Shown: piece after piece, positions 4,959 through 19,021 of the stretch
Layout of the letters: the number at the start of each line of letters is the position of its first letter
Position numbering within the stretch: the first letter of the stretch is position 1
Source of the DNA: Actinobacteria bacterium UBA5176
GTDB taxonomy: Bacteria; Actinomycetota; UBA4738
DNA: 19,048 nucleotides
Direction of reading: 5' to 3'
Assembly (NCBI GenBank): GCA_002413305.1
Contig: DHWS01000098.1
Location: forward strand, 1 to 19,048
Position numbers and translations under genes: made by a program
Notes under the pieces: model-generated
What the model saw: only the letters and a program-made list of their open reading frames with translations
Databases searched by the model: none
Told to the model about the DNA's origin: nothing

Positions 4959-6634
4959 GTGTTGATGACATCGTCCCGTTCGAGCCACCCGCGCTGCGCG
5001 GTCCCCACGCCGTATCGCATGAAGGGCAGGTGGACCGTCGAGTGCGAGTCGGTGTCCACGGCGAACTTCACCCCGTGACGCCTGGCCCACATGACGTGCT
5101 CGTCCCGCAGGTCCAGCCGGTCCGGGAACGAGTTGACCTCCAGCGCCGTTCCGGTTCGAGCCGCCGCTTCGAACACCGCATCCAGGTCGAACTCGATCGG
5201 TGCCCGCCGGCCGATGAGCCGAGCCGTGGGGTGGCCGATGATGTTGACGTATGGGTTCTCGCATGCCCGGATGATCCGCCGGGTCATCTGGTCCTGGGGC
5301 TGGTTGAACTCCGAGTGCACGGACGCGACGCAGACGTCGAACCCCTCGAGGAAATGCGGACCCCAGTCGACGTCTCCGGCCGGGTCGATGTTCAGCTCGG
5401 TCCCGTGCAGCAGGGTCATCTTCGGGTACCTCGACTGCAGCTTCCTGACCTGCCGGCGCTGGGTGAGCATCTTCTCGTCGGTCATCCGTTGCATGTACAG
5501 GTTCGGCGCGTGGTCGGTGACCGCGTAGTACCGGTACTTCAGGCCCGCCGCCGTCTCCAGCATCTGCTCCAGGGAGGCCAGGCCGTCGGTGAGGTTGGTG
5601 TGGGTGTGGAGGTCGCCCCGAAGGTTCTTCCGTTCGACCAGGGTGGGCAGTTCGCCGCGGAGGGCCGCGTCGATCTCCCCCCGGTCCTCCCGGAGGGTCG
5701 GAGGGATCCAGGGCAGGCCCAGCTGCGCGTAGACCTCCTCCTCGGTCTCGGCCACGATCAGGTTCCCCGAGGCGGCTTCGAACAACCCGTACTCCGAGAG
5801 CTTCAGGCCCTTGCGGACGGCCATCTCCCGGGTCCGGATGTTGTGCGCCTTGGACCCGGTGAAGTACTGGAGCGCCGCCCCCCACACCTCCGGGGTGATG
5901 ACCCGCAGGTCGACCTGCAGGCCCATCGTCGAGCGGATGGAGGTCTTCGTCTCCCCCCGGGCGACGATCCGCTCGACGATGGCGAGGTTGACGAAGGCCT
6001 CCATCACCGGCCCGGCGTCCTCGGACGCCACGAGGATGTCGATGTCCCCGATCGTTTCCCGCATGCGGCGGAGCGAGCCTGCGTACGCGCACTTCCGGCA
6101 GCCCCTCAGCGCGGAGAGCTCGCCGAGGATCTCTTCGGCCAGCTCCATCCCCACGCCGATCTGGACCCGCTCCCCCGACTGCTGCATCAGCGAGATGCCG
6201 CGAAGGATGTTCTCCTCGGTCTTCGGCCCGAACCCCTTCATGCCGGCGAGCAGCCCGGCGTGGATGGCGTCGGCCAGCTCCTGGACCGAGGCGATCTTCA
6301 TCTCCCGGTAGAGCATCAGGGCCTTCTTCGGGCCGAGCATCGGTATCGAGATCATGTCGCGGACACCGGCAGGCACCTGCTTGCGGAGCTCCTCGAGCCG
6401 TTCGAACGTGCCGGTCTCGAGCGCCTGCCGAACCTTGCCGACGATGGACTTGCCGACGGCCGGGATGGCCAGGATGCCCTTGTCGTCGAGCGTGGCGAGG
6501 TCGGCGTGGTAGCCGCCCACCGAGCGAGCCGCCTTCTCGTACGTCCGGACGCGGAACGGGTCGCCGCCGGAGATCGACAACAGGTCCGCGTACTCCTCGA
6601 GCAGCGCTTCGACGACCTCGTTCGCCCTCGGCAT
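4910..6634 (-). CDS. polX: DNA polymerase/3'-5' exonuclease PolX
   Basis: A family X DNA polymerase fused to a PHP phosphoesterase domain, 574 residues, the normal bacterial length. Order: N-terminal helix-hairpin-helix region (about 1-145, with IPAVGKSIVGKV and GMKGFGPKTEENI), nucleotidyltransferase palm (about 150-310) with AGSLRR (185-190), GDIDI giving Asp197 and Asp199, and VDLRV giving Asp242, then a PHP domain (about 338-574) with GDLHTHTNLTDG, HGTELNI, ASVHSE, IGHPTAR and DTDSHS. All metal-ligand motifs look intact, so both gap-filling synthesis and proofreading are expected, as known for Bacillus and Thermus PolX. The start ATG is clear, with TAGAAT six bases upstream. The gene lies 44 bases after argF and overlaps mpg, another base-excision-repair gene, which fits a shared function. 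Confidence 0.96.
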   Translation of the reverse strand: MPRANEVVEALLEEYADLLSISGGDPFRVRTYEKAARSVGGYHADLATLDDKGILAIPAVGKSIVGKVRQALETGTFERLEELRKQVPAGVRDMISIPMLGPKKALMLYREMKIASVQELADAIHAGLLAGMKGFGPKTEENILRGISLMQQSGERVQIGVGMELAEEILGELSALRGCRKCAYAGSLRRMRETIGDIDILVASEDAGPVMEAFVNLAIVERIVARGETKTSIRSTMGLQVDLRVITPEVWGAALQYFTGSKAHNIRTREMAVRKGLKLSEYGLFEAASGNLIVAETEEEVYAQLGLPWIPPTLREDRGEIDAALRGELPTLVERKNLRGDLHTHTNLTDGLASLEQMLETAAGLKYRYYAVTDHAPNLYMQRMTDEKMLTQRRQVRKLQSRYPKMTLLHGTELNIDPAGDVDWGPHFLEGFDVCVASVHSEFNQPQDQMTRRIIRACENPYVNIIGHPTARLIGRRAPIEFDLDAVFEAAARTGTALEVNSFPDRLDLRDEHVMWARRHGVKFAVDTDSHSTVHLPFMRYGVGTAQRGWLERDDVINTWPLDKLRRFLRKGRA

Positions 6635-6640
6635 GCCTCG

Positions 6641-6646
6641 ATTCTA
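6641..6646 (-). promoter_or_regulatory. Candidate -10 box for leaderless polX transcript
   Basis: TAGAAT on the minus strand, six bases before the polX ATG at 6634, in the 44-base gap after argF. It matches TATAAT at four of six positions. No -35 box is seen. A start at or next to the ATG would give a leaderless repair transcript (polX-mpg) separate from argF. Confidence 0.45.
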
Positions 6647-6678
6647 TTGGCCGCCGGGCCGGTGGCCGCAGCCGAGGC

Positions 6679-7605
6679 TCAGGCCCCGCCGAGGAGGAAC
6701 AGCAGCAACGCCTTCTGCGAGTGGAGGCGGTTCTCCGCCTGGTCCCACACCACCGAGTGCGGACCGTCGATGACCTCGTCGGTGATCTCCTGGCCACGGT
6801 GGGCGGGGAGGCAGTGCAGGACGATGCAGTCCGGGTCGGCGCGGTCGACGGCGGCCTGGTCAAGCCGGTACGGCTGGAAGATCAGCGTCCGTTCGCTCGC
6901 TTCGGCCTCCTGGCCCATGGATGCCCAGACGTCGGTGTACAGGACGTCAGCGCCCTGTTCGGCCTCGGCCACGTCCTCCGTGACCATGATGCGGCCGCCG
7001 GCGCCAGCCTCGCCGGCGAGCTCCTCGGCGCGCTGCACGACCTGCGGGATGGGCTCGTAACCCGGAGGCGTGGCCACCCGGACCGACATGCCGGCCTTGG
7101 CCCCGCCGATGAGCAGCGAATGCGCGACGTTGTTCCCGTCCCCGACGTAGGCGAGCGTCAGACCTTCGAGCCGGCCCTTGTGCTCCCGGACGGTCAGCAG
7201 GTCGGCCAGGCACTGGCACGGGTGCTCGAAGTCCGACAGCGCGTTCACGATGGGCACGGTGGCGGTGCGGGCCAGGGCTTCGAGCCGCTCCTGGCCGAAC
7301 GTGCGGAGGACGATCGCGTCGACGTAGCGGGACAGGACCCTGCCGGTGTCCTCGATGGTTTCCCCCCGGCCGAGCTGGAGCTCCGTGGACGACAGGGCAA
7401 GCGGGTGCGCCCCCAGACCGGCGATGCCGACCTCGAACGAGACGCGGGTCCGGGTGGAGGGTTTCTCGAAGATCATCGCCACGGCCAGGCCGCGCAGGCG
7501 GTCCGCGTAGTCCGGCGCCGACGACTTGACCTTGTCCGCCAGGTCGAGGAGCGAGGCGAGCTCGCCCGGCGAGAGGTCGTCCATCGAGAGGAAGTTCCGG
7601 CTCAT
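6679..7605 (-). CDS. argF: Ornithine carbamoyltransferase (anabolic)
   Basis: Converts ornithine and carbamoyl phosphate to citrulline in arginine biosynthesis. 308 residues from the start chosen, a normal length. Key motifs are intact: the carbamoyl-phosphate loop PSTRTRVSFE, LRTFGQ, HPCQCLADL, the ornithine-side DVWASMGQE and HCLPAHRG. The first residues (MSRNFLSMDDLSP) align with the usual N-terminus (M-x-x-HFL-x-x-DDLSP), so ATG 7605 is preferred; an in-frame ATG at 7617 would add four residues. No strong Shine-Dalgarno is present for either, and TACGAT lies ten bases before 7605. The gene stands alone between pheT and polX: argC, J, B, D, R, G and H, its usual actinobacterial neighbours, are not in this window. 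Confidence 0.96.
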   Translation of the reverse strand: MSRNFLSMDDLSPGELASLLDLADKVKSSAPDYADRLRGLAVAMIFEKPSTRTRVSFEVGIAGLGAHPLALSSTELQLGRGETIEDTGRVLSRYVDAIVLRTFGQERLEALARTATVPIVNALSDFEHPCQCLADLLTVREHKGRLEGLTLAYVGDGNNVAHSLLIGGAKAGMSVRVATPPGYEPIPQVVQRAEELAGEAGAGGRIMVTEDVAEAEQGADVLYTDVWASMGQEAEASERTLIFQPYRLDQAAVDRADPDCIVLHCLPAHRGQEITDEVIDGPHSVVWDQAENRLHSQKALLLFLLGGA

Positions 7606-7670
7606 GGCGGCGCCCATCGTAAACGCCCCGAGCCGTGGGCCGCCAGCGTTCGGCCGGGGTCCGGGACCGT

Positions 7671-10058
7671 TCAGCCGGCTCGGAGCTCGGCCCCGACGTC
7701 GGCCGCCAGTCGCTCGACGATCGTCGTCACGGCAGCTTCGGCCTCCTCGTCGGTGAGGGTCCGGTCCGGGGCCCGGAAGTCCAGCGAGTAGGCGAGGCTC
7801 TTCTTCCCCGGCGCGATCGGCGCCCCCGCGAACACGTCGAACAGCTCGATCCGATCGAGCAGTGCCCCAGCCGCCCGTTCGATCCCCCGCCGGACATCGG
7901 CGGCGGGGATCGCTTCGTCAACCACGAAGGCCAGGTCGCGGTGGATCGGCGGGTAGCGGGGGACATCGCGCAGCGTGATCGTGGACGCAGCATGCCGCCC
8001 GAGCACCCCGGCCTCCAGTTCCGCCACGGAGGTGCCGGCCGGGAGGTCGGAAGACTCGGTGACCTGTGGGCGCAGCTCGCCGATCGCCCCCGCCCGCTGG
8101 CCGCCGATCAGGACGGCCGCCGAGCGCGCGGGGTGGAACGGCACGCCCGGGGGCTCGCCGAGCTCCCAGTCTCCGATCCCGAGCACCGCGAACAGGGTCT
8201 CCAGCGCGCCCTTCGCGTCGAAGAAACCGAGCGTCCGCGTCTCCCCCGGGTAGCCGGACGACGCCGTTCCGGCCAGGACGAAGGCGACGTGCTCGCGTTC
8301 GTCGACGGGTTCGTCCCCGTCTCCGGGGGCGAACACGTGCCCGGTCTCGAACAGCGCCACTCCGCGGACGCCCCGGCTGCCGTTCCGCGCCACCGCCTTC
8401 AGGAGTCCCGGCACCAAGCTTCGGCGGAGCCAGGCTTCCTCCGACGTCAGTGGGTTCGCCATGAGGACGCCGTCGGACCTGCCCATCAACTCGAGGTCGG
8501 CCCGGGAGGCGAACGAGAGCGAGTACGCCTCCCGCAGTCCCGCCCGGACCAGCCCGTCGCGGATGCGGCGGCGGAGGGCGAAGCTGTCGGCGACCCCGCC
8601 GGCCTGCCGGACACCCGGCCGGGTCGACGGGAGAAGGTCGTAGCCTTCGACCCGAACGATCTCCTCGATCAAGTCGACCTCGCGCTCAAGGTCGACCCGG
8701 TAGCCGGGAACCTCGACGTCCACCTCGTCCCCCTGAGCGAGGACGGCCTCGATCCCGAGGCTCTCGAACGCCTCGGCCGCGCCCTCCGGTGACACCGGAT
8801 ACCCGAGCAGGCGGCTCGCCCGCCCGGCCCGGACGGTGAGGTGCCGGCGCTCCGGGACGGAACCCTGTTCCACGGCGCCGGCCAGGACCGAACCACCCGA
8901 CCACGCCGCGATCAGCGAGGCGGCGCGGGCGGCCGTGGGGCCCACAGCCTCGGGGTCGACGCCACGTTCGAACCGGCTGGACGCCTCGGTGTGCAGGGCG
9001 AGGCGGCGGGCGGTCCGCAGGACGCCGCGCCGCTCGAAGTTCGCGCTCTCCAGGAAGATGTCCTGCGTCCTGGGATGGACCTCGGCCCCGGCCGAACCCA
9101 TGACCCCCGCGATGGCCATGGCCTTGGCGTGGTCCGCGATGACCAGGTCCTCGGCCGTCAGGGTCCGCTCGACGTCGTCGAGGGTCACGATGCGTTCGCC
9201 CTGCTCCGCACGCCGGACGATGATCCCGCCCCCTTCCAGCAGGGCCAGGTCGAACGGATGCAGCGGCTGTCCGAGCTCCAGCATCGCGTAGTTCGTCGCG
9301 TCGACCGCGTTCCACAGCGGGCGCATCCCGGCGGCGGTGAGCCGCGCCTGCACCGAGATCGGCGACGGACCGATGCTCACCCCGCGGACGACCCGGGCGA
9401 GGTAACGGGGACACCGCTCCAGGTCGCGGACCTCGACCGTCGCCACCGCGCCGGCCTCTTCGCGGGACTGTTCCACGGCGGTGTCGGGCGGGGTCAGGGG
9501 TAGCCCGGTGGCGGCCGCGACTTCGCGGGCGATCCCGAACACGCACATCAGGTCGGGGCGGTTGGGTTCGATCTCCACGTCCAGTACGGCGTCGTCCAGC
9601 CCGAACGTGGCCTTCACGTCGACGCCCGGTTGGAGCCCCGGCGGCAGGATCAGGATGCCGCTGTGGCTGGGGGCGATGGCCAGCTCCATCGGCGAGCAGA
9701 GCATCCCGTTCGACTCGACCCCCCGGATCTTCCGAACTCCGAGCGGCTCGGGGAGGGCCGGCACGCGGGCGCCGGGGACCGCGTAGGGAACCAGGTCCCC
9801 CGGTCGCATGTTCCGGATCCCCGCCACGACCTCCATCCGGCCGCCCGGGCCGACGTCGACGGTGGCCACGCAGAGCGTGTCCGAGTCGGGATGGTCGCGG
9901 ACCTCCAGCACGCGAGCTACGACCACGCCCTCCAGCCCCTCCCACGGCCGGAGGATCTCCTCGACGTGGATGCCCTTCGCGTTGAGGATCTCCGCCAAGT
10001 CTTCGGCTTCCTGTTCGACCCGGACGAACTCGCGCAACCACGAGAGGACGACCTTCAC
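7671..10058 (-). CDS. pheT: Phenylalanyl-tRNA synthetase beta subunit
   Basis: Large subunit of the alpha2-beta2 PheRS that charges tRNA-Phe. 795 residues, the usual length. Domains in order: N-terminal region starting KVVLSWLREFV, the EMAP-like tRNA-binding domain (about 39-150, with VRDHPDSDTLCVATVDVG and NGMLCSPMEL), B3/B4 editing domain (about 210-380, with TNYAMLELGQPLHPFD), B5 domain (about 400-475), the catalytic-like core, and the C-terminal ferredoxin-fold anticodon-binding domain (about 705-795, with PRYPPIHRDLAFVVD). It starts with GTG three bases after the pheS stop, so the two are co-transcribed and probably translationally coupled. Confidence 0.97.
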   Translation of the reverse strand: MKVVLSWLREFVRVEQEAEDLAEILNAKGIHVEEILRPWEGLEGVVVARVLEVRDHPDSDTLCVATVDVGPGGRMEVVAGIRNMRPGDLVPYAVPGARVPALPEPLGVRKIRGVESNGMLCSPMELAIAPSHSGILILPPGLQPGVDVKATFGLDDAVLDVEIEPNRPDLMCVFGIAREVAAATGLPLTPPDTAVEQSREEAGAVATVEVRDLERCPRYLARVVRGVSIGPSPISVQARLTAAGMRPLWNAVDATNYAMLELGQPLHPFDLALLEGGGIIVRRAEQGERIVTLDDVERTLTAEDLVIADHAKAMAIAGVMGSAGAEVHPRTQDIFLESANFERRGVLRTARRLALHTEASSRFERGVDPEAVGPTAARAASLIAAWSGGSVLAGAVEQGSVPERRHLTVRAGRASRLLGYPVSPEGAAEAFESLGIEAVLAQGDEVDVEVPGYRVDLEREVDLIEEIVRVEGYDLLPSTRPGVRQAGGVADSFALRRRIRDGLVRAGLREAYSLSFASRADLELMGRSDGVLMANPLTSEEAWLRRSLVPGLLKAVARNGSRGVRGVALFETGHVFAPGDGDEPVDEREHVAFVLAGTASSGYPGETRTLGFFDAKGALETLFAVLGIGDWELGEPPGVPFHPARSAAVLIGGQRAGAIGELRPQVTESSDLPAGTSVAELEAGVLGRHAASTITLRDVPRYPPIHRDLAFVVDEAIPAADVRRGIERAAGALLDRIELFDVFAGAPIAPGKKSLAYSLDFRAPDRTLTDEEAEAAVTTIVERLAADVGAELRAG

Positions 10059-10061
10059 GGG

Positions 10062-11132
10062 CTACGTCGCCCCTTCGAACTGCGCGAGGAAACGGACGTC
10101 GTTCTCCAGGAGCATGCGGATGTCCGGGAAGCCGTACCGGAGCATCGCCATCCGGTCGATCCCCCCGCCGAACGCGAACCCCGAGTACCGCTCCGGGTCG
10201 TAGCCGACGTTCTCCAGGACACGGGGGTGGACCATGCCACAGCCCATCCCCTCGATCCATCCGTTGCCGCAGGTCCGGCACCCGACCCCGCCGCACACGA
10301 AGCACGTCACCTCGACCTGAGCGCCGGGCTCGACGAAGGGGAAGAACGAGGGCGTGAGCCGGATCCTCCGCTCCTGGCCCAACAGGGCCCGGTAGAAGGT
10401 CTCGAGGGTGCCCTTGAGGTCGGCGAACGTGATGTCCTCGTCGACGGCCAACCCCTCGACCTGGTGAAACACCGCCAGGTGGGTGGCGTCCGTGGCCTCG
10501 TTCCGGAACACGCGGCCCGGGGCGATGACGTACACGGGCGGGGGCTGGGACTCCATCGTCCGGATCTGCATCGCGCTGGTCTCGGTCCGGAGCACCCGCG
10601 GCTCGCCCGGTGTGGACAGGTACAGGGTGTCGGTCGTCTTGCGCGCCGGGTGGTCGGGCGGGATGTTGAGCGCGTCGAAGTTGTACCACTCGGTTTCGAC
10701 CTCCGGCCCTTCGACGACGCGGTAGCCCATGCCGGTGAAGATGTCGACGATCCGGTTCTGGAGCAGCGTCAGCGGGTGCAGGGATCCGGGGCGGAGCCGC
10801 CGGCCGGGAAGGGTCACGTCGATCCGGTCGGCCTCCAGGAGGGCCCGCTCGCGTTCGGCCTCCAGCGTCTCCCGGCGGCTCGCGATGGCCGAACGGAGCG
10901 CCCCTCGGACCTCGTTCGTCCGTTGTCCGATCCGGCGCCGGTCCTTCTCCGACAGGCCACCCAGGCCCCGCTGGATCCCGGAGAAGGGCGACTTCCGGCC
11001 CAGGAGCGCGCTCTCCGCTTCGTCCAGGGCGTCCCGGCCCGCCGCGCCGCCGATCAGGGCGAGGCCGCGCGCCAGCTCGGCGTCGAGGACGCCGAGGGCT
11101 TGGCCGGGGTCGAGCGCTTCAGATGCCGGCAT
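10062..11132 (-). CDS. pheS: Phenylalanyl-tRNA synthetase alpha subunit
   Basis: Catalytic subunit of PheRS, 356 residues. It has an N-terminal coiled-coil arm (about 1-95), then class II motifs: motif 1 around HPLTLLQNRIVDIFTGMGY, motif 2 region VFRNEATDATHLAVFHQVEG, and motif 3 FAFGGGIDRMAMLRYG near the C-terminus. The CFVCGGVGCRTCGNGW segment followed by GCGMVHP is the cysteine-rich insert common in bacterial PheS. ATG 11132 is chosen because the alpha-subunit N-terminus begins there; an in-frame extension to 11213 is arginine/proline-rich and unlike the family. TACACT lies 12 bases upstream and no Shine-Dalgarno is present, so the leader is at most a few bases. Confidence 0.96.
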   Translation of the reverse strand: MPASEALDPGQALGVLDAELARGLALIGGAAGRDALDEAESALLGRKSPFSGIQRGLGGLSEKDRRRIGQRTNEVRGALRSAIASRRETLEAERERALLEADRIDVTLPGRRLRPGSLHPLTLLQNRIVDIFTGMGYRVVEGPEVETEWYNFDALNIPPDHPARKTTDTLYLSTPGEPRVLRTETSAMQIRTMESQPPPVYVIAPGRVFRNEATDATHLAVFHQVEGLAVDEDITFADLKGTLETFYRALLGQERRIRLTPSFFPFVEPGAQVEVTCFVCGGVGCRTCGNGWIEGMGCGMVHPRVLENVGYDPERYSGFAFGGGIDRMAMLRYGFPDIRMLLENDVRFLAQFEGAT

Positions 11133-11144
11133 GATCGGAACAGG

Positions 11145-11150
11145 AGTGTA
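11145..11150 (-). promoter_or_regulatory. Candidate -10 box for pheS-pheT (argF) transcript
   Basis: TACACT on the minus strand, 12 bases before the pheS ATG, predicting a 5' leader of roughly six bases. No convincing -35 box is seen. A leader this short excludes a T-box or a phenylalanine attenuator of the enterobacterial kind. Confidence 0.4.
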
Positions 11151-11299
11151 TCGGCCGGGCGGCGCCGGGCGGGTCCCGCGGACCGGACGGGGTCGCCTCC
11201 GACGGTCCGACACCCTGTCGGCCGATCACCGTATTTCGCACCGTTTTCGCCTCCCCACCGGTTCAGGTTTCCGCCCCTTCGGGCCGATACCTCTTCTGG

Positions 11300-13891
11300 G
11301 TGTCGCAGATGGACCGAACACATCCGGCCGAAGTGCCGGCTTCCAGCGCTGTTGGTGGCGTCCGCCGAGGAGGCGCCCGCCACCGGGCGGGCCGGCTGGA
11401 TGCCACCGACCCCGCGCCACCCCTCGACCTCACGCACCGGCCGGACGACGAACTCTTCTTCCGCGCGCTGGACGCCAGTTCCGACGCGGTCCTCCTCTCA
11501 CGCGCGTCGGACGCCCACCTGCTCTACGTCAACGAAGCGTTCGTCGCGCTCTGCGGGTATGGGCGCGACGAGGTGATCGGACGCACGGTCGAGGAGCTGG
11601 GCCTGTGGACCCTCGCCGACGGTTGGGAGGACCCTTCCGGCGCCCGGCGGGCGGCGGAGATCGTGGTTCGATCCAAGGACGGCACGCAGACGCGGGCCAC
11701 CCTGTCGACCGAGGCCGTCGAGATCCGGGGCGAACCGTGCCTGCTCCGGATGATCCGGGACGACTCCGAGCGGCGACGTCTGGAGGAGACGGTCGTCCAC
11801 CTCGCTTCGATCGTGGAGTCCTCCCACGACGCGGTGATCACCGCCACGCCGGACGGCACCATCACGTCCTGGAACGCCGCGGCCGAGCGCATGTTCGGCC
11901 ACCGGCCCGAGGAGGCCATCGGACGCCCCGTGGCCATCATGTGCCCCCCCGACCGGCTCCACGAGATGGACGAGATCCTGGAGCGGGCCAGGGCGGGTGA
12001 ACACGCGGGCGTGCTGGAGACCGTCCGGATGCGGAGGGACGGGACCCCGATCCACGTCTCCCTGATGGTCTCCCCCACCCGCGACGCCGACGGCCGGATC
12101 ACGGGGTCCTGGGGCCTGGTGCGGGACATCACCGACCGGAAGCTGGCCATGGACCAGCTCCGGGAGGCGGAGGCGAAGTACCGTTCGCTGGTCGAACGGA
12201 TCCCGGTGGTCACCTACGTCGATGCGGTGGACCGGACGAGCTCCGCCGTGTACATGAGCCCGCAGGTCCAAGAGATGCTGGGCTACCCGCAGGACCAGTG
12301 GCAGAGCGAACCCGACCTGTGGGTTCGGACCATCCACCCCGACGACCGCGAACGGGTCCTCGCGGAGAGCGATCGGACCAACCAGACGGGAGAGCCGTTC
12401 GCCATGGAGTACCGGCTCCTGCACCGAGATGGCCGCACCGTGTGGGTCCGTGACGATGCCCTGCTGGTCCGGGACGAACTCGGCAATCCCCGCATCTGGC
12501 AGGGCATGCTGCTCGACATCAGCGACCAGAAGCGGGCCGAGGAGGAGATGGCCTTCCTCGCCTACCACGACAAGCTCACCGGCCTGCCGAACCGGGTGAT
12601 GTTCGAGGAGTTGCTCGAGTTGGCCCTGACCCGTGCCGGGCGGCACGGGCTGGCGGTCGCGGTCCTCTACGTCGACCTCGACAACTTCAAGAACGTGAAC
12701 GATTCTCTCGGCCACGACGCAGGTGACGACGTACTGCGCCAGACCGCGCTCCGGCTGCAGGAGGCGGCGAGGGCGGCCGACGTCGTGGCCCGCCATGGCG
12801 GGGACGAGTTCCTCGTGTTGCTCTCCGACCTCGACCGGGAGCCGAAGGACGACGTGCCGGCTCCGGCGACCACCGCGGAGATGGTGGCCGACCGTCTGGA
12901 GGAGGCGCTCCAGCAGCCGTTCGTCGTGCACGGGGCGGACTTCGCCATCTCGGCCAGTGTGGGGATCAGCCTGTACCCGTTCGACGCCCGGGACGGCGTC
13001 GAACTGCTCCGGCACGCCGACTTCGCCATGTACCAGGCGAAGCAGGGTGGCAAGCACGGACATGCGCGGTACGCGGCTGAGGAGGAGGGACCGGGCCAGG
13101 TGTCGCTCGCCAGCCGGCTGCGCAAGGCCGCCGAGCGCCAGCGATGGGAGCTCCACTACCAGCCGATCGTGCGCCTGGCGGATGCCGAGCTCGTGGGCCT
13201 GGAGGCGCTGCTCCGCTGGCAGGATCCGCGGGCGGGGCTGATCCCCCCGGCGAGGTTCATCCGTCTCGCCGAGCAGACCGGCATCTCGGAGGCGATCGGC
13301 GACTGGGTGCTGGAGGAGGCCTGCCGGCAGATCCGGACCTGGCGCGACGCCGGTCTCACCGGAACGACGTGGTTGAACCTCTCCCCCCGGCAGCTCTGGC
13401 GCCGCGACTTCGCCACCCGGACCGTGTCACTTCTCTCCTCGTGGGGCCTGGAGCCGGCGGACCTCGGGGTCGAGGTAACCGAGGCCACCGCCATGGCCGA
13501 CCCCGCCCGCGCGTCCACCGTGCTTCACGACCTCCATGCGGCCGGGATCCTCATCGCCGTGGACGACTTCGGGACCGGGGCGTCCTCGTTGTCGTTGTTC
13601 ACCGACCTGCCGGTCGACGCACTGAAGGTCGACCGGACGCTCGTGGGGCGGATCGCCCGCGGCGGGCCGACGGCGTCGATGGTGGCCGCGATCGTGCAGT
13701 TCGCGTCCTCCCTCGGTGTCCAAGCGGTCGCCGAGGGCGTGGAGACCGAGGAGCAGCGGCGGTGGTTGCTCGAACGGGGCTGCGCACTGGGACAGGGTTA
13801 CCTGTTCGGCAGGCCGGTGGCAGCCTCGGCGATCACGGCACGGATCCGCCGGTCGGGTTCGCGCTTCGAACCGGGGGCCGCCGGAGGCTGA
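11300..13891 (+). CDS. PAS-PAS-PAS-GGDEF-EAL cyclic-di-GMP signalling protein
   Basis: A cytosolic bifunctional-type cyclic-di-GMP protein of 863 residues with no transmembrane segment. Three PAS domains lie at about 52-160, 165-285 and 290-415, the last with the PAC-like HPDDR and DGRTVWV motifs. The GGDEF domain (about 418-590) has LDNFKNVND with the metal Asp459, GGDEF at 500-504, and an RxxD inhibitory site (RAAD, 491-494) exactly five residues before it. The EAL domain (about 605-850) has LEALLRW (EAL at 635-637), LNLSPRQL, EVTEA, DDFGTGASS, ALKVDR and AEGVET. Both halves keep their catalytic signatures, so synthesis and breakdown are both possible, with the PAS domains sensing an unknown ligand. 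The start may be GTG 11300 or ATG 11309. The gene is divergent from pheS and ends four bases from the convergent methyltransferase gene. Confidence 0.95.
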   Translation: MSQMDRTHPAEVPASSAVGGVRRGGARHRAGRLDATDPAPPLDLTHRPDDELFFRALDASSDAVLLSRASDAHLLYVNEAFVALCGYGRDEVIGRTVEELGLWTLADGWEDPSGARRAAEIVVRSKDGTQTRATLSTEAVEIRGEPCLLRMIRDDSERRRLEETVVHLASIVESSHDAVITATPDGTITSWNAAAERMFGHRPEEAIGRPVAIMCPPDRLHEMDEILERARAGEHAGVLETVRMRRDGTPIHVSLMVSPTRDADGRITGSWGLVRDITDRKLAMDQLREAEAKYRSLVERIPVVTYVDAVDRTSSAVYMSPQVQEMLGYPQDQWQSEPDLWVRTIHPDDRERVLAESDRTNQTGEPFAMEYRLLHRDGRTVWVRDDALLVRDELGNPRIWQGMLLDISDQKRAEEEMAFLAYHDKLTGLPNRVMFEELLELALTRAGRHGLAVAVLYVDLDNFKNVNDSLGHDAGDDVLRQTALRLQEAARAADVVARHGGDEFLVLLSDLDREPKDDVPAPATTAEMVADRLEEALQQPFVVHGADFAISASVGISLYPFDARDGVELLRHADFAMYQAKQGGKHGHARYAAEEEGPGQVSLASRLRKAAERQRWELHYQPIVRLADAELVGLEALLRWQDPRAGLIPPARFIRLAEQTGISEAIGDWVLEEACRQIRTWRDAGLTGTTWLNLSPRQLWRRDFATRTVSLLSSWGLEPADLGVEVTEATAMADPARASTVLHDLHAAGILIAVDDFGTGASSLSLFTDLPVDALKVDRTLVGRIARGGPTASMVAAIVQFASSLGVQAVAEGVETEEQRRWLLERGCALGQGYLFGRPVAASAITARIRRSGSRFEPGAAGG

Positions 13892-13895
13892 CCCG

Positions 13896-15335
13896 TCACC
13901 GGTCGGCGCGGGCTTCGGGCGCCAGCCGAACCCGGAAGCGGATCCCGCCAGCCGTGTCCACCTCCAGCGTCCCGTCCTGCGACTCGGTCAGCCCCTTGGC
14001 CACGAAGAGCCCTACCTTGCTCCCGCCGCCGCTCCCGGGCTGTCGGGGCCGGAACAGGGCCGCGGCGCCCTCGGCGTCCAGCTCGGTGCCGGTCCGGGAG
14101 ACCTCCACGACCGGTTCGCCGTCCGCTCCGACCGACAGCCGCACGGGCCCCTCTTCGCCCCACCATTGCGCGCTCTCGATGAGCGCGATCAGGATCGTGC
14201 GGAGCCGGGCCGGATCGACGAACGCCCGCACGGGCTCTCCGGCCACCTCCAGGTCGAACTGACTCCACTGGGCGAGCTCGTCCCGCACGAGCATGGCGGC
14301 CTCGAGCAGGTCGGTGTTGATCCGGCTGATCTCCAGGCGGTGGGAGGTCAGGCGGGCCGCTTCGACCAGCTGGGTCACGATGATCTCCATGCGCGCCGCG
14401 TCGTGCGTCACGCCCTCGAGCATCATCAGGCGCTGCTCGTCATCCAGCTTGGCCCACCTGGCGACCAGGGTCTTGGCGAACCCCCCGAGCGCGGTCAGCG
14501 GCGAACGGATGTCGTGGGCCGCGCCGCCAACGATCTGGGACAGGACATCACCCCCGGCCCGCTGCCGTGCGGCTTCGAACAGGATCACGGTGGCCGCCGC
14601 CGCCAGGTTCAGCGACTCCGCGTTGCCCGCGATGGGGACCCGCAGCGTGGCGTCGGCCAGGTCGCGGACGTGCGTCCGGAGCCCTCGGGCCTCGTTCCCC
14701 AGGACCACGGCGGCCGGCTTCGTCAGGTCGGCCTCGAAGACGGGGAGATCGCCGTCGGAGGCAGCCGCGTAGACCGCGAACCCCCGGGCCCGGAGCATCG
14801 CGACGCTCTCTTCGACCGCGACCTCCCGGACGACCGGGACGTGGAACAGCGAACCCGCAGAGGCCCGGACGGCCTTGCTGTTGTAGACGTCGACGGAGGA
14901 GGTGGAGAAGACGACCGCGTCAGCCCCGGAGGCATCGGCCGAGCGCAGGATGGTCCCGGCGTTGCCCGGGTCCCGGACCTCGGCCAGCACCGGGACGATG
15001 CCGGCCCGGTCCGCGTCGAGCGCGTCCAGCCCGACGTCCACGAAGTCGGCCACCGCGACGACGCCTTGAGGAGTGACGGTCGAAGTCAGGTGGGCCATGA
15101 CCTCCTCGGACACAAGCGAGAGCGAGACCCCCGCTTCCAGGGCCGCGTCGATCGCCGGAGCGATCCGCTGGTCCGGCGTCGTGTGGAAGACCTCCCGGAC
15201 CCGGGCTCCGGATGCGATCGACTCGAACACGGCCTGGGCGCCTTCGACGAGGAACCGCCGGTCCTTCTCACGCATGGCGCGCTTCTTCAGGCGGATGGCC
15301 TTCGCGACGCGCTTGTTGTGGACCGAGGAGATCAT
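13896..15335 (-). CDS. SPOUT (TrmH/TsnR-type) rRNA methyltransferase fused to a histidine-kinase-like module
   Basis: Residues 1-260 form a complete SpoU/TsnR-type RNA 2'-O-methyltransferase: substrate-binding part (about 1-100, with RRFLVEGAQAV), then SPOUT motifs NAGTILRSA (125-133), GNEARGL (213-219) and AESLNLAAAATV (239-250). Such enzymes normally end here. The same frame continues for about 220 residues as a histidine-kinase-like unit: a DHp helix pair (about 262-330) with H-box AHDIRSPLTAL (His274), then a GHKL-like ATPase fold (about 340-473). The ATPase motifs are eroded. The N-box reads ILIALIESAQ with Ser388 where Asn is expected, G1 DxGxG has become SRTGT, and G2 is only partly kept (KVGLFVAKGL). 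Kinase activity is therefore doubtful. The gene follows rplT by 67 bases in the infC-rpmI-rplT operon, the standard place for tsnR. No clear Shine-Dalgarno is seen. Confidence 0.9.
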   Translation of the reverse strand: MISSVHNKRVAKAIRLKKRAMREKDRRFLVEGAQAVFESIASGARVREVFHTTPDQRIAPAIDAALEAGVSLSLVSEEVMAHLTSTVTPQGVVAVADFVDVGLDALDADRAGIVPVLAEVRDPGNAGTILRSADASGADAVVFSTSSVDVYNSKAVRASAGSLFHVPVVREVAVEESVAMLRARGFAVYAAASDGDLPVFEADLTKPAAVVLGNEARGLRTHVRDLADATLRVPIAGNAESLNLAAAATVILFEAARQRAGGDVLSQIVGGAAHDIRSPLTALGGFAKTLVARWAKLDDEQRLMMLEGVTHDAARMEIIVTQLVEAARLTSHRLEISRINTDLLEAAMLVRDELAQWSQFDLEVAGEPVRAFVDPARLRTILIALIESAQWWGEEGPVRLSVGADGEPVVEVSRTGTELDAEGAAALFRPRQPGSGGGSKVGLFVAKGLTESQDGTLEVDTAGGIRFRVRLAPEARADR

Positions 15336-15394: not shown

Positions 15395-15411
15395 CCGGCC
15401 TTCTAGGCCGG
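15395..15411 (-). other. Perfect stem-loop over the rplT stop codon
   Basis: CCGGCCT and AGGCCGG pair perfectly around a three-base loop; the rplT TAG stop is inside the stem-loop. No U tract follows, so it is unlikely to be a full terminator. It may be a processing or attenuating structure that lowers expression of the methyltransferase fusion relative to the ribosomal proteins. Confidence 0.4.
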
Positions 15412-15813
15412 GGCCTCCGAGCGGGCCGTCCGGCGCCGGCGCTTCGGCTTCGCCTCGGCTTCGAGCCCGCCCTTTGCCGTCTGGGCCAGCGATGCGAACG
15501 CGCCCGGGTCGTTCACCGCGAGGTCGGCCAGGACCTTCCGGTCGAGCTCGACCCCCGCCGCTGCCAGGCCATGGATGAACGTCGAATACGTCATGCCCTG
15601 AGCTCGAGCGGCGGCCCCGATGCGAACGATCCACAGGCGGCGGAACTGGCCCTTGCGGTCGCGGCGGTCGCGGTACTGGTAGACGCCCGAGTGCGCGATC
15701 TGCTCCTTCGCCACGCGGATCCGACGGGAGCGGGCTCCGTAGTAGCCCTTGGCCGCCTCCATGATCTCGCGGCGGCGCTTGTTCCCGTGGACGGCGCGTT
15801 TGACCCTCGGCAT
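15403..15813 (-). CDS. rplT: 50S ribosomal protein L20
   Basis: Binds 23S rRNA early in 50S assembly. 136 residues; the core ([75 protein letters not shown]) is fully conserved. Compared with the usual 115-120 residues it has a C-terminal extension of about 17 residues rich in Lys/Arg and Ala ([14 protein letters not shown]). AAGGGA lies about 9 bases before the ATG, a usable Shine-Dalgarno. It follows rpmI by 24 bases. In Firmicutes and E. coli L20 represses its own operon through the mRNA leader; whether it does so here is unknown. Confidence 0.97.
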
Positions 15814-15837: not shown

Positions 15838-16032
15838 CTACCCGCCGGCCAGGAGCCGCTTGGCGGTCTTCTTCTCCGGGCCGATCACGGCCATGCCGGA
15901 GATCCGGCGCTTCCTGCTACCGGTCTTCTTGATGAGGAAGTGGTTGCCCGTGGCCTTGCGGCGCATGATCTTGCCGCTCCCGGTGACCCGGAAGCGCTTG
16001 GCCGCGCCTCGGTGCGACTTCATCTTCGGCAT
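15838..16032 (-). CDS. rpmI: 50S ribosomal protein L35
   Basis: A 64-residue basic protein of the large ribosomal subunit with the family pattern [33 protein letters not shown] and a C-terminal [11 protein letters not shown]. Length is standard. AAGGA lies about ten bases before the ATG. It starts four bases after the infC stop and is followed by rplT, the conserved infC-rpmI-rplT order. Confidence 0.97.
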
Positions 16033-16036
16033 GCCG

Positions 16037-16627
<591 letters not shown>

Positions 16628-16802: not shown

Positions 16803-18218
16803 CTACTCGGGCTCGGAACCGGCGCCCCCGAGCATGTCGATCTGGGCCCGGATCCGGCGTTGCGCATCCGCATCCTCCAGGATCGCCGCGACCTTCGCCG
16901 CACGCTCGAGCATATCGGCGGCCTGGGCATTCGCGTTCAGTTCGATGGCCCTGGCAGCGGCCCGTTCCAGGTAGTGCAGCGCCTTGCCCTGCTCCTCGCT
17001 TCGGTAGAAGTAGTACGCGAGGATCTCGAGGTAGTCCTCGAGGGAGCCGCGGTACACCTCCTCGAACACGGAGCCGACCCGTCCGTAGAGCTCGCGCATC
17101 GCCGGCGGGGGAAGCGTGGCGGCTGCGGCCTCCTGCACCAGCCCATGTTTGAAGGTGCACTCGGGCTCCGGATATCGGCGCGTCTCCCGGATCAGGTCCG
17201 CGCGAAGCAGCGCGGAAAGATCCTGGACGAACGTCTCGCTCTGCGTGAGTCGTTCCAGGACCCGAACCGGGAACGTCCGTCCGATGGCCGCCGCCGTCTG
17301 CACGAGACGCCTCGGCCCCTCGGGCAACCCGTCGATCTGCGCGGCGAACAGGCTCTCCAGCGATGGTGGAAGGAGCTGGCGGGTCGAGATCGACATCGTC
17401 CACCCGCGCCTGGGCGAAGGGCCTCCCATCGCGATCACGTTCCGGAACAGCTCCTCGAGGAACAGGGGGTTCCCCTCGGCCCGGAGCACCAGGCCCTCCC
17501 GGGTCACCTCGTCGATCAGACTCGGCGGGGCCAGCGCCGCGGCCAGTTCCCGGGCCGCCGGGATCGACAGTGGGCCGACTGGAAGCTCGGTTGCGCGGTG
17601 CGGATACCCCGAGAGCACGCCGATCCGGAACCGCCATGCCTCGCTCTCGGGGTCCGACCTGAATGCCACTGCCACCAGGAGTGATGCGCTGTCCGTGACC
17701 GCGAGGAGATCCTCCGCGAGCTGCCGGGTGGAGGGGTCCGCCCACTGCATGTCGTCGATGGCCACCACCACGGGTCCTCGCGCGGCCAGGGCTTCGATCC
17801 ACAGCTGGAACGCCCTCCGGATCGCTTCCCAGAGGGCCTCCGCCGGAAGCGCCGCGAACCGCGCTTCGGCGTCGGCTTCCACCTTCACCGAAAGGAACCT
17901 GCTCAGGAACGCCACGGTCTCCCGGGCGTCCGGCCCGAGCAGCGTGCCGAACCTGGCCCGCAGACGCGTCCGAACCGCGATCTCCGGCTCCCCCTCGCGC
18001 AGCTCCAGCCACCCCCGGAGCATGTCGACGAACGGCCTGGCCAATAATCCGCTCCCGTAGGACAGGCACCGAGCATCCAGCCACGTGGCCCGCTCCCTGG
18101 CGAGCGTTCGAGCTTCCGACAGCAGGCGGGTCTTGCCGATCCCCGACTCGCCGGACAGCAGGAGGATCTGGCCGAGGCCGGAGTTCAGATCCTCGAGCAC
18201 GGCTCGGAGCCTGGCCAT
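16803..18218 (-). CDS. AAA/STAND-type ATPase, C-terminal part of a frameshifted cyclase-ATPase
   Basis: 471 residues counted from the internal ATG at 18218. The frame is open upstream, and the bases just before this ATG encode the usual linker of cyclase-ATPase proteins (VPAWRLEGI, then GTPLVGRDPE), so this is the continuation of the cyclase in another frame and not a free-standing gene. The P-loop is GESGIGKT (23-30) and Walker B is VVVAIDDMQWAD (about 150-161), followed by the family motif GNPLFLEELFR. The last 130 residues are helical and TPR-like (LERAAARAIELNANAQAADMLERAAKVA). This signal-transduction ATPase architecture is known from LuxR-LAL and cyclase-AAA proteins. The C-terminal helical part is short compared with relatives of 1000 or more residues. 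The gene ends 48 bases before the -35 box of the infC promoter. Confidence 0.85.
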   Translation of the reverse strand: MARLRAVLEDLNSGLGQILLLSGESGIGKTRLLSEARTLARERATWLDARCLSYGSGLLARPFVDMLRGWLELREGEPEIAVRTRLRARFGTLLGPDARETVAFLSRFLSVKVEADAEARFAALPAEALWEAIRRAFQLWIEALAARGPVVVAIDDMQWADPSTRQLAEDLLAVTDSASLLVAVAFRSDPESEAWRFRIGVLSGYPHRATELPVGPLSIPAARELAAALAPPSLIDEVTREGLVLRAEGNPLFLEELFRNVIAMGGPSPRRGWTMSISTRQLLPPSLESLFAAQIDGLPEGPRRLVQTAAAIGRTFPVRVLERLTQSETFVQDLSALLRADLIRETRRYPEPECTFKHGLVQEAAAATLPPPAMRELYGRVGSVFEEVYRGSLEDYLEILAYYFYRSEEQGKALHYLERAAARAIELNANAQAADMLERAAKVAAILEDADAQRRIRAQIDMLGGAGSEPE

Positions 18219-19021
18219 CTCCGGATCCCGCCCGACGAGCGGGGTCCCCTCGGGCCCCTTGGGTTCGCCCCGGATACCCTCCAGCCGCCACGCGGGGACC
18301 GCCGCTCCCGCCCCTTCACCGTGAGTTCACCCATCGGCTCCAGGTCGAATCGCGGATCGAGCAGCTTGGCCGTCACCTCGCCCACTGCGATCGTGCCGGG
18401 CTCGGCCACGGACTGCAGGCGTGCTGCGACGTTGGTCGTGTCGCCGAGGGCCACCGTTTGCGGGTCGGCCGAGCCCACGACCCCCACCCCGACCCGGCCG
18501 GTGTTGATCCCGATCCGAACGTTGAAATCGGCGATCCGCCAGGCCGCCCGGATGTCCTGGGCGTACTCCCCGGTCACCGAAAGGATCGAGAGCGCTGCCC
18601 GGGCGGCCCGCTCGGCGTCGTCCTCGTGGGCGGCCGGGACCCCGAAGTACGCGCAGATGCCATCTCCTGCGTATGCCTGGATCGTCCCTCCGAACTGTTC
18701 GACCGTCCGGCTCATCCGGGTCACGCATTCACCGATCAGGATCTTGACCTCGTCAGCGGTCAACCGTTCACCCAGGGCGGTCGACCCGACGATGTCCGCG
18801 AACAACACCGTGACGGGGCGGAGTTCGTCCTGGGCTCTGCCGGTGGCGCGGGCCGGCGGACTCGTCTCTCCCCCGTTCAGGGCGCGCCCGCAGGCGGGGC
18901 AGAACCGAGCCCCTGGCGGTGGAGACGCGCCGCACACTGCGCAGCGTCCGTCCGGCTCCGTGGGCGTGTTGGTCACCCCCCTCTGGGCGGCCGATCCATG
19001 CCGGCCCGATCGGCTCCTCAC
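18185..19021 (-). CDS. Zinc-ribbon class III nucleotide cyclase, N-terminal part of a frameshifted cyclase-ATPase
   Basis: The N-terminal zinc ribbon has CAVC and CPAC (Cys27, 30, 41, 44). The class III cyclase domain (about 67-236) has LFADIVGSTALGERL with metal Asp76, AGDGICAYFG with Asp120, GINTGRVGVGVVG, and GDTTNVAARLQS with the transition-state Asn197 and Arg201. The usual adenine-recognising Lys is not present; the segment is GGTIQAYAGDG, as in other cyclase-ATPase proteins with substitutions there, so the substrate (ATP, GTP or none) is uncertain. After ELTVKGR (about residue 238) the frame leaves the family sequence and runs about 40 unrelated residues to a stop, while the next frame carries on the linker and ATPase. 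The start is GTG 19021 or GTG 18976. The frame is still open at the right edge, so a start outside the window is possible. Confidence 0.82.
   Translation of the reverse strand: MRSRSGRHGSAAQRGVTNTPTEPDGRCAVCGASPPPGARFCPACGRALNGGETSPPARATGRAQDELRPVTVLFADIVGSTALGERLTADEVKILIGECVTRMSRTVEQFGGTIQAYAGDGICAYFGVPAAHEDDAERAARAALSILSVTGEYAQDIRAAWRIADFNVRIGINTGRVGVGVVGSADPQTVALGDTTNVAARLQSVAEPGTIAVGEVTAKLLDPRFDLEPMGELTVKGRERRSPRGGWRVSGANPRGPRGPRSSGGIRRWPGSEPCSRI
18290..18330 (-). other. Frameshift site joining the cyclase and ATPase frames
   Basis: The cyclase frame reads ELTVKGRERR and then diverges; the frame one base back reads AVPAWRLEG. A -1 step anywhere in GTGAAGGGGCGGGAGCGG restores a normal four-residue link between VKG and VPAW. 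The run includes GGGG, where a Gly codon could slip. Either one base has been lost (mutation or assembly error) or this is programmed -1 frameshifting. No clear downstream pseudoknot was identified. Confidence 0.75.

Follow-up and report, generated by a model that had tools for sequence, protein, structure and literature searches.

A single open reading frame in the window (the whole stretch of DNA analysed here, 19,048 nucleotides of contig DHWS01000098.1 from Actinobacteria bacterium UBA5176) encodes a SPOUT 2'-O-methyltransferase followed by a linker and then by a complete DHp-CA histidine-kinase fold. Taking the proposal as a whole, we think it somewhat probable that this is an order-wide fusion of an RlmP/RlmR-like methyltransferase with the DHp-CA half of a kinase that was its neighbour in the operon. 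With the same modest confidence, we suggest that the kinase-derived module is a pseudo-kinase acting as a phosphotransfer, phosphatase or docking unit for the response regulator OrrA, tethered to an rRNA methyltransferase. Features of the window are collected in Table 1.

Table 1. The fused gene, its domains and key residues, and neighbouring genes in the window
Feature	Position	Strand	Basis or remark
Fused gene, SPOUT 2'-O-methyltransferase (RlmP/RlmR-like) plus DHp-CA pseudo-histidine-kinase module, 479 aa	13896..15335	-	
L30-like RNA-binding domain (MRM3-like_sub_bind / SpoU_sub_bind), residues 7-97	15045..15317	-	Pfam; fold match to RlmR/RlmP
SpoU (SPOUT) methyltransferase domain, residues 116-253	14577..14990	-	Pfam, alignment
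Junction linker, roughly residues 258-264	14544..14564	-	variable length among relatives
DHp (HisKA) domain, two-helix hairpin, residues 265-331	14343..14543	-	domain scan
His274, phospho-acceptor position, H box AHDIRSPL	14514..14516	-	alignment
Degenerate CA (HATPase_c) domain, residues 374-472	13920..14216	-	domain scan, alignment
Arg414, where the G1-box Asp is expected	14094..14096	-	alignment
Lys440, where the G2-box Gly is expected	14016..14018	-	alignment
rplT (L20), next gene upstream, part of the conserved cluster	15403..15813	-	
rpmI (L35), presumed	15838..16032	-	translation
infC (IF3)	16037..16573	-	
pheS	10062..11213	-	separated from the fused gene here
PAS-GGDEF-EAL gene, convergent, between the fused gene and pheS	11300..13891	+	outside the conserved cluster

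An earlier note on this DNA had read the frame as a SPOUT methyltransferase joined to a histidine-kinase-like unit, and both the domain scan and the conservation of the frame across order genomes bear this out. In a Pfam scan, the SpoU_methylase (PF00588, 125.2 bits), L30-like substrate-binding (PF22435, 53.0 bits) and HisKA domains all score above cut-off, and the methyltransferase motifs NAGT, GNEA.GL and ESLNLA are invariant or nearly so in an alignment of relatives. The proposed relationship of residues 262-479 to HisKA/GHKL proteins is likewise confirmed: domain search and fold match both find the HisKA/HATPase_c fold, and the CA fold is retained in a structure model. The distance from the ESLN motif to the phospho-acceptor His ranges from 33 to 56 residues across fused proteins (n = 138 of 140; P0058 and P0121 were dropped, the ESLN motif being found in neither). 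This range makes rigid coiled-coil signalling from the methyltransferase to the DHp helices unlikely.

Two identities for the methyltransferase were ruled out: TsnR/NshR, with 69.7 bits against a cut-off of 425 for the NCBIfam equivalog NshR_TsnR, and RlmB, with 135.2 bits against a cut-off of 160.15 for the equivalog TIGR00186. A fold comparison finds for the window enzyme the SPOUT fold seen in 9muj and 7qiu, and by sequence and fold it is nearer to RlmP/RlmR than to TsnR. This refines the earlier description of the gene as standing at the tsnR position. RlmP (Bacillus subtilis YsgA, 7qiu) and RlmR (Thermus, 9h1k/9muj) are SPOUT 2'-O-methyltransferases of the 23S rRNA A-loop; unlike the window protein, their solved chains of 249-261 residues leave no space for a C-terminal kinase-like module. 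Judging from the enzyme family, the substrate of the window enzyme is probably rRNA.

Upstream of the fused gene lie rplT, infC and, between them, a frame that we take, from its translation, to be rpmI. In most relatives read, pheS directly follows the fused gene; in the window, the PAS-GGDEF-EAL gene, of the c-di-GMP turnover type, stands in the interval, with four bases between its stop codon and that of the fused gene. In another genome of the order, G008 (L049, about 6146-8756), the interval between the fused gene and pheS likewise holds an insertion, unrelated and of about 2.6 kb, with open frames of about 850 codons. Elsewhere in the window, an AAA_16 ATPase frame (16803-18218, minus strand) and a guanylate/adenylate-cyclase frame (18185-19021, minus strand) overlap by 34 bases in different frames; perhaps a frameshift has split a single cyclase-AAA gene, or two genes overlap here.

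Of 7,997 candidates scored with residues 258-479 as query, 418 proteins matched at E<=1e-3. The search for homologues with the same two-domain architecture that the earlier note had suggested was successful: SpoU_methylase and HisKA are both present, according to a precomputed domain column, in all of the best 120 of the 418 matches, a set that includes the window's own protein and some partial sequences. We also sampled 396 genomes of the phylum. Fused-protein matches at E<=1e-62 occur in 25 of the 27 genomes of the window's order, 24 of them extending into the kinase module, and in 0 of the 369 genomes outside it. The fusion is thus present in 24 of the 27 order genomes; in two it is fragmentary, with module fragments covering residues 428-475 in G004 and 365-475 in G020, and in the remaining one, G002, the match stops at residue 261 and the frame closes with a stop codon at the junction. 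In that genome (L076), pheS follows the methyltransferase frame, which halts right at the linker, and OrrA is nonetheless retained. The modules of G003 and G010 are more diverged, and in G021 (L046) the last stretch of the module deviates from its relatives, probably through a local sequence error or frameshift. The presence of the fusion in 24 of 27 order genomes and in the 120 best database rows rules out an assembly or sequencing artefact, a frameshift or a lost stop codon as its source. The possibility, considered earlier, that a sequencing error had removed a stop codon between two genes fails in view of this single frame conserved across genomes.

Residues of the kinase half were compared in one alignment of the best 120 of 418 fused matches and the best 120 of 5,276 short-kinase matches; the fused sample consists of the nearest relatives of the window's protein and is biased for that reason, and for the short kinases genome position was examined only in genomes individually named. 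In these samples, His274 is histidine in 120/120 fused proteins and 120/120 short kinases, and D275, R277 and P279 are invariant in the 120 fused proteins. The ATP site has been replaced. In the N box of the best 120 fused proteins, residue 384 is Ala in 116, Ser or Gly in the rest and never Asn, against Asn in 117 of the best 120 short kinases; residue 388 is Ser, Gly, Ala, Thr or Cys and never Asn, against Asn in 120/120; and residue 391 is Trp in 120/120, against the N-box Lys in 120/120. Likewise, residue 414 in the G1 box is Arg in 119 and Lys in one, against Asp in all 120 short kinases, and residue 440 in the G2 box is Lys in all 120, against Gly in all 120. A G2-like GSKVGL segment is strongly conserved in the fused proteins.

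The same pattern is seen in 21 order sequences from four families: H274, D275, R277, P279, W391 and R414 are each present in 21/21, S278 in 19/21, and K440 in 19/21 with Arg in the other two. In the most diverged sequences, L055 and L056, H274, D275, R277 and P279 are kept and the only H-box change is at S278, to Leu and Thr. H-box residues and K440 are invariant in 68 aligned proteins. In three close genome pairs, the kinase module has a dN/dS of 0.09-0.19 and the methyltransferase part one of 0.12-0.23; taken by itself, the DHp part gives 0.34 (few changes), 0.01 and 0.08. The module is under purifying selection. Random erosion of the CA domain is ruled out by this selection on the whole module and by the fixation of most of the replaced residues. 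The retention of His274 in its H box, noticed earlier from the sequence, is confirmed in the best 120 of 418 fused proteins and in the 21 order sequences aligned; as for the ATP boxes, described earlier as eroded, their N, G1 and G2 residues have for the most part given way to fixed ones, so that the site is better described as remodelled. Because the CA domain has lost its ATP-Mg-binding residues, the fused module would not be expected to autophosphorylate, and its kinase activity has probably been lost.

The earlier note also mentioned a separate kinase-like gene between the methyltransferase gene and pheS in some streptomycetes, and such genes exist. Among the 19 stretches from outside the order compared for this cluster (L057-L075), eight have a separate histidine kinase in the methyltransferase-pheS interval (G047, G038, G052, G056, G027, G034, G035, G049), one of these genomes being a 9.2-Mb single contig; seven have the cluster with no kinase match, one of them (G055) with a 1.8 kb gap there; and in the remaining four pheS is not shown. 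The order methyltransferase-short kinase-pheS is found in six further genomes (G101, G150, G170, G219, G228, G237). In G032 and G046 (L088, L089), the kinase comes directly after rplT and before pheS, and no methyltransferase is seen between; this family pairs its OhkA-like kinase with a more diverged OrrA-like regulator. The eight separate operonic kinases read are genes of their own with the H, N, G1 and G2 boxes intact in 8/8; six have a PAS-like N-terminal part, judged by reading the sequence and not by domain search, and two (G027, G056) are short DHp-CA kinases. The fused module differs from them in these respects. Passages in two papers (PMC9739842, PMC10771440) give the Streptomyces coelicolor numbering as OhkA = SCO1596, pheS = SCO1595 and pheT = SCO1594, and this kinase next to pheS fits the one mentioned.

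In a tree of 48 rows, the 21 fused modules form one clade (support 100/100), and a branch with support 99/94 unites them with the two short operonic kinases that lack a PAS part. A separate group (100/99) is made up of 17 other kinases, with the PAS-type operonic kinases placed in between. A second tree, built quickly and with 86 rows, also took in 10 short kinases and the 30 best kinase matches from order genomes, of which one is a fused module and four were already in the tree. Here, the other 29 order-genome kinases fall outside the group of fused modules and short kinases. Rows FU_L055 and FU_L056 are in the 48-row tree and absent from the 86-row tree; the G032 and G046 kinases (PAR_L088, PAR_L089) group with operonic kinases in both. 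Since the fused branch is long in both trees (0.91 and 1.43 changes per column), the exact place of the module is less sure than the support values suggest.

These trees support a shared descent of the fused module with the kinases of the rplT-pheS interval and, by putting it beside the short kinases of that position, lend weight to the earlier suggestion of a fusion between two neighbours. OhkA, the S. coelicolor orphan histidine kinase described in a passage of PMC10771440 at the same place beside pheS, would belong to the same lineage, to judge from this tree, in which other kinases stand for that position. The simplest and most likely history may be that an operonic kinase lost its sensor part and became joined to the methyltransferase encoded upstream of it, its ATP site then being lost as well. 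A second, intact OhkA was not found in the order: at E<=1e-50, none of the 27 order genomes matches a separate kinase of the OhkA position, the 74 genomes with such a match all belong elsewhere, and the best remaining kinases of order genomes are at most 41% identical to a short kinase.

OrrA (SCO3008) is reported as the cognate regulator of OhkA from phenotype, transcriptome and two-hybrid data in passages of two reviews (PMC9739842, PMC10345050), the first of which lists SCO3012 as MtrB. In G047 we found the gene order mtrB-lpqB-(one gene without family match)-hpf-response regulator, with secA further on; this matches SCO3012/SCO3008, and we identify the hpf-linked regulator as OrrA on this positional basis. 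The ribosome-hibernation gene hpf was found in 21 of 24 genomes searched, and among these 21 the regulator stands beside hpf in 12/12 genomes with the fusion, 5/5 with a separate kinase and 0/4 without a kinase. In the window's genome, OrrA has a receiver-LuxR architecture, and its gene is flanked by hpf at one end and by secA and a release-factor gene at the opposite end; none of 10 ORFs around hpf-regulator-secA matches a kinase domain. On contig 171 of G000 (L148), matches to an SAH hydrolase, a phosphorylase and the IF-2B family lie upstream of hpf-orrA and may represent SAM-recycling enzymes.

The OrrA receiver is present in all 27 order genomes at 71-100% identity and in the eight separate-kinase genomes at 63-84%. 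Of the 61 genomes compared, 26 remain, and these have a best match of 59% or none. Full-length OrrA at E<=1e-75 is found in 26 of 27 order genomes, in 10/10 non-order genomes whose operonic kinase was read (the eight plus G032 and G046) and in 0/7 non-order genomes whose cluster was read without a kinase match. Three of the 26 remaining genomes, G032, G046 and G060, carry a 60-65% relative in this search; in G060 an OhkA-like kinase lies at the end of a contig. The phospho-acceptor Asp, the Thr and the Lys are kept in 17/17 OrrA sequences read. OrrA is thus kept throughout the order (27/27) although no intact OhkA was found in its genomes.

At fixed cut-offs, the 369 non-order genomes divide into 60 with OrrA and an OhkA-like kinase, 10 with OrrA only, 14 with the kinase only and 285 with neither, counts that are not independent, as the genomes are related. 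A short-kinase query finds a short kinase next to pheS in seven of the 10 OrrA-only genomes, and eight of the 14 kinase-only genomes fall in a single family whose frames, about 1,000 aa long, are probably paralogs. Kinase and OrrA are also absent together within families (f5, G027 and G056 against G042; f12, G034 against G048). Preserved OrrA-specificity residues receive no support from five DHp positions (H+8, +11, +15, +34, +37) taken from HK853/RR468 rewiring: here the fused modules agree at 0.28-0.30 with operonic kinases versus 0.33 with unrelated ones, the G032 and G046 kinases being excluded from both groups. Over the whole DHp hairpin, agreement is 0.42 with operonic kinases versus 0.30 with others.

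We propose that an operonic kinase of the OhkA position, its PAS sensor part already lost, would have joined the upstream methyltransferase, and that after this fusion the CA domain would have lost the residues binding ATP and Mg while the DHp helix pair and the phospho-acceptor His were kept. The DHp helices might then accept a phosphoryl group on His274 or pass one on from it, or might dephosphorylate or hold OrrA. A flexible tether would link the module to an enzyme whose family suggests that it visits large ribosomal subunits while they are still immature. The coupling may run either way, from OrrA output to rRNA maturation or from methylation to OrrA; the fusion suggests that ribosome maturation is tied directly to a circuit of gene control. 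Some evidence runs counter to OrrA as the partner: G002 keeps OrrA without the module, so that OrrA has no strict need of it, and order genomes possess other kinases that might phosphorylate OrrA. We may also hypothesize, though we regard this as doubtful, that OhkA/OrrA in Actinomycetota monitors the condition of the 23S rRNA A-loop, or late large-subunit maturation, via the neighbouring RlmP/RlmR-like methyltransferase, the fused enzyme being in the order the input domain of a kinase-dead OhkA gating OrrA. The operonic kinase of G032 and G046, without an adjacent methyltransferase, makes this less probable and indicates that the two genes need not go together.

Other explanations dispense with the regulator or with the loss of activity. 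The module might be a structural or RNA-docking appendage, its DHp hairpin strengthening the SPOUT dimer and its less acidic CA domain contacting rRNA or an anionic ligand with no phosphoryl chemistry. This is in line with the newly fixed R414, K440 and W391 in the former ATP site, with a mean net charge of the CA stretch that moves from -6.1 in the best 120 short kinases to -0.7 in the best 120 fused proteins, and with the description of RlmR as a dimer and of SPOUT enzymes as usually active in that form (a passage of PMC12123411). A dimerisation helix, however, needs neither a phospho-acceptor His nor D275, R277 and P279, which are invariant in the best 120 fused proteins and persist even in L055 and L056; an appendage would also leave OrrA retention unexplained, and we consider it unlikely.

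It seems to us improbable that the module is an unusual active kinase, whose altered CA domain would bind another nucleotide or use an unorthodox site and still phosphorylate His274: none of the best 120 fused matches retains either N-box Asn, the N-box Lys, the G1 Asp or the G2 Gly of position 440, even if the conserved GSKVGL segment, the CA fold of the model and the retained His with its acidic neighbour could be read in its favour. A neutral relic, in which chance read-through joined a kinase gene that is now decaying, would accord with the stop codon at the junction in G002, the more diverged modules of G003 and G010 and the DHp dN/dS of 0.34 in one close pair; the whole-module values in all three pairs and the invariance of H-box residues and K440 in the 68 aligned proteins speak against it and make it very improbable. 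An assembly or sequencing artefact joining two genes has a negligible probability given the recurrence of the architecture in order genomes and database rows.

Turning back to the OrrA-directed pseudo-kinase that we favour, the module resembles ChpT, Spo0B and PhyT in keeping the DHp His beside a degenerate ATPase domain. Passages of PMC5898713 and PMC9981736 present these as degenerated histidine kinases working as phosphotransferases; in that description, unlike the fused module, none is joined to an RNA enzyme. PhyT is reported there to act in two ways, by transferring phosphate and by holding its regulator in the unphosphorylated state, and either mode is possible for the fused module. The latter appears to descend from the operonic kinase lineage, and the ChpT and Spo0B families are absent among its six Pfam matches at E<=10. 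In a collection of open-access papers searched in full text, we found no report of a methyltransferase-kinase fusion of this kind and no mention of SCO1597, presumably the S. coelicolor methyltransferase gene between rplT and ohkA. The parts and the pseudo-kinase class are known; the joining partner and the nearly fixed residue set are new.

In S. coelicolor, antibiotic production and development are under the control of OhkA/OrrA. A passage of one review treats the system under the heading 'Unidentified stimulus' (PMC10345050), and a passage of another paper ties it to osmoadaptation (PMC9739823). The neighbourhood and the fusion offer a concrete candidate input for this system, rRNA maturation. 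If our reading is true, two-component chemistry would have been built directly into an RNA-modifying enzyme, and the fusion would be a natural record of a kinase turned kinase-dead by a nearly fixed set of substitutions.
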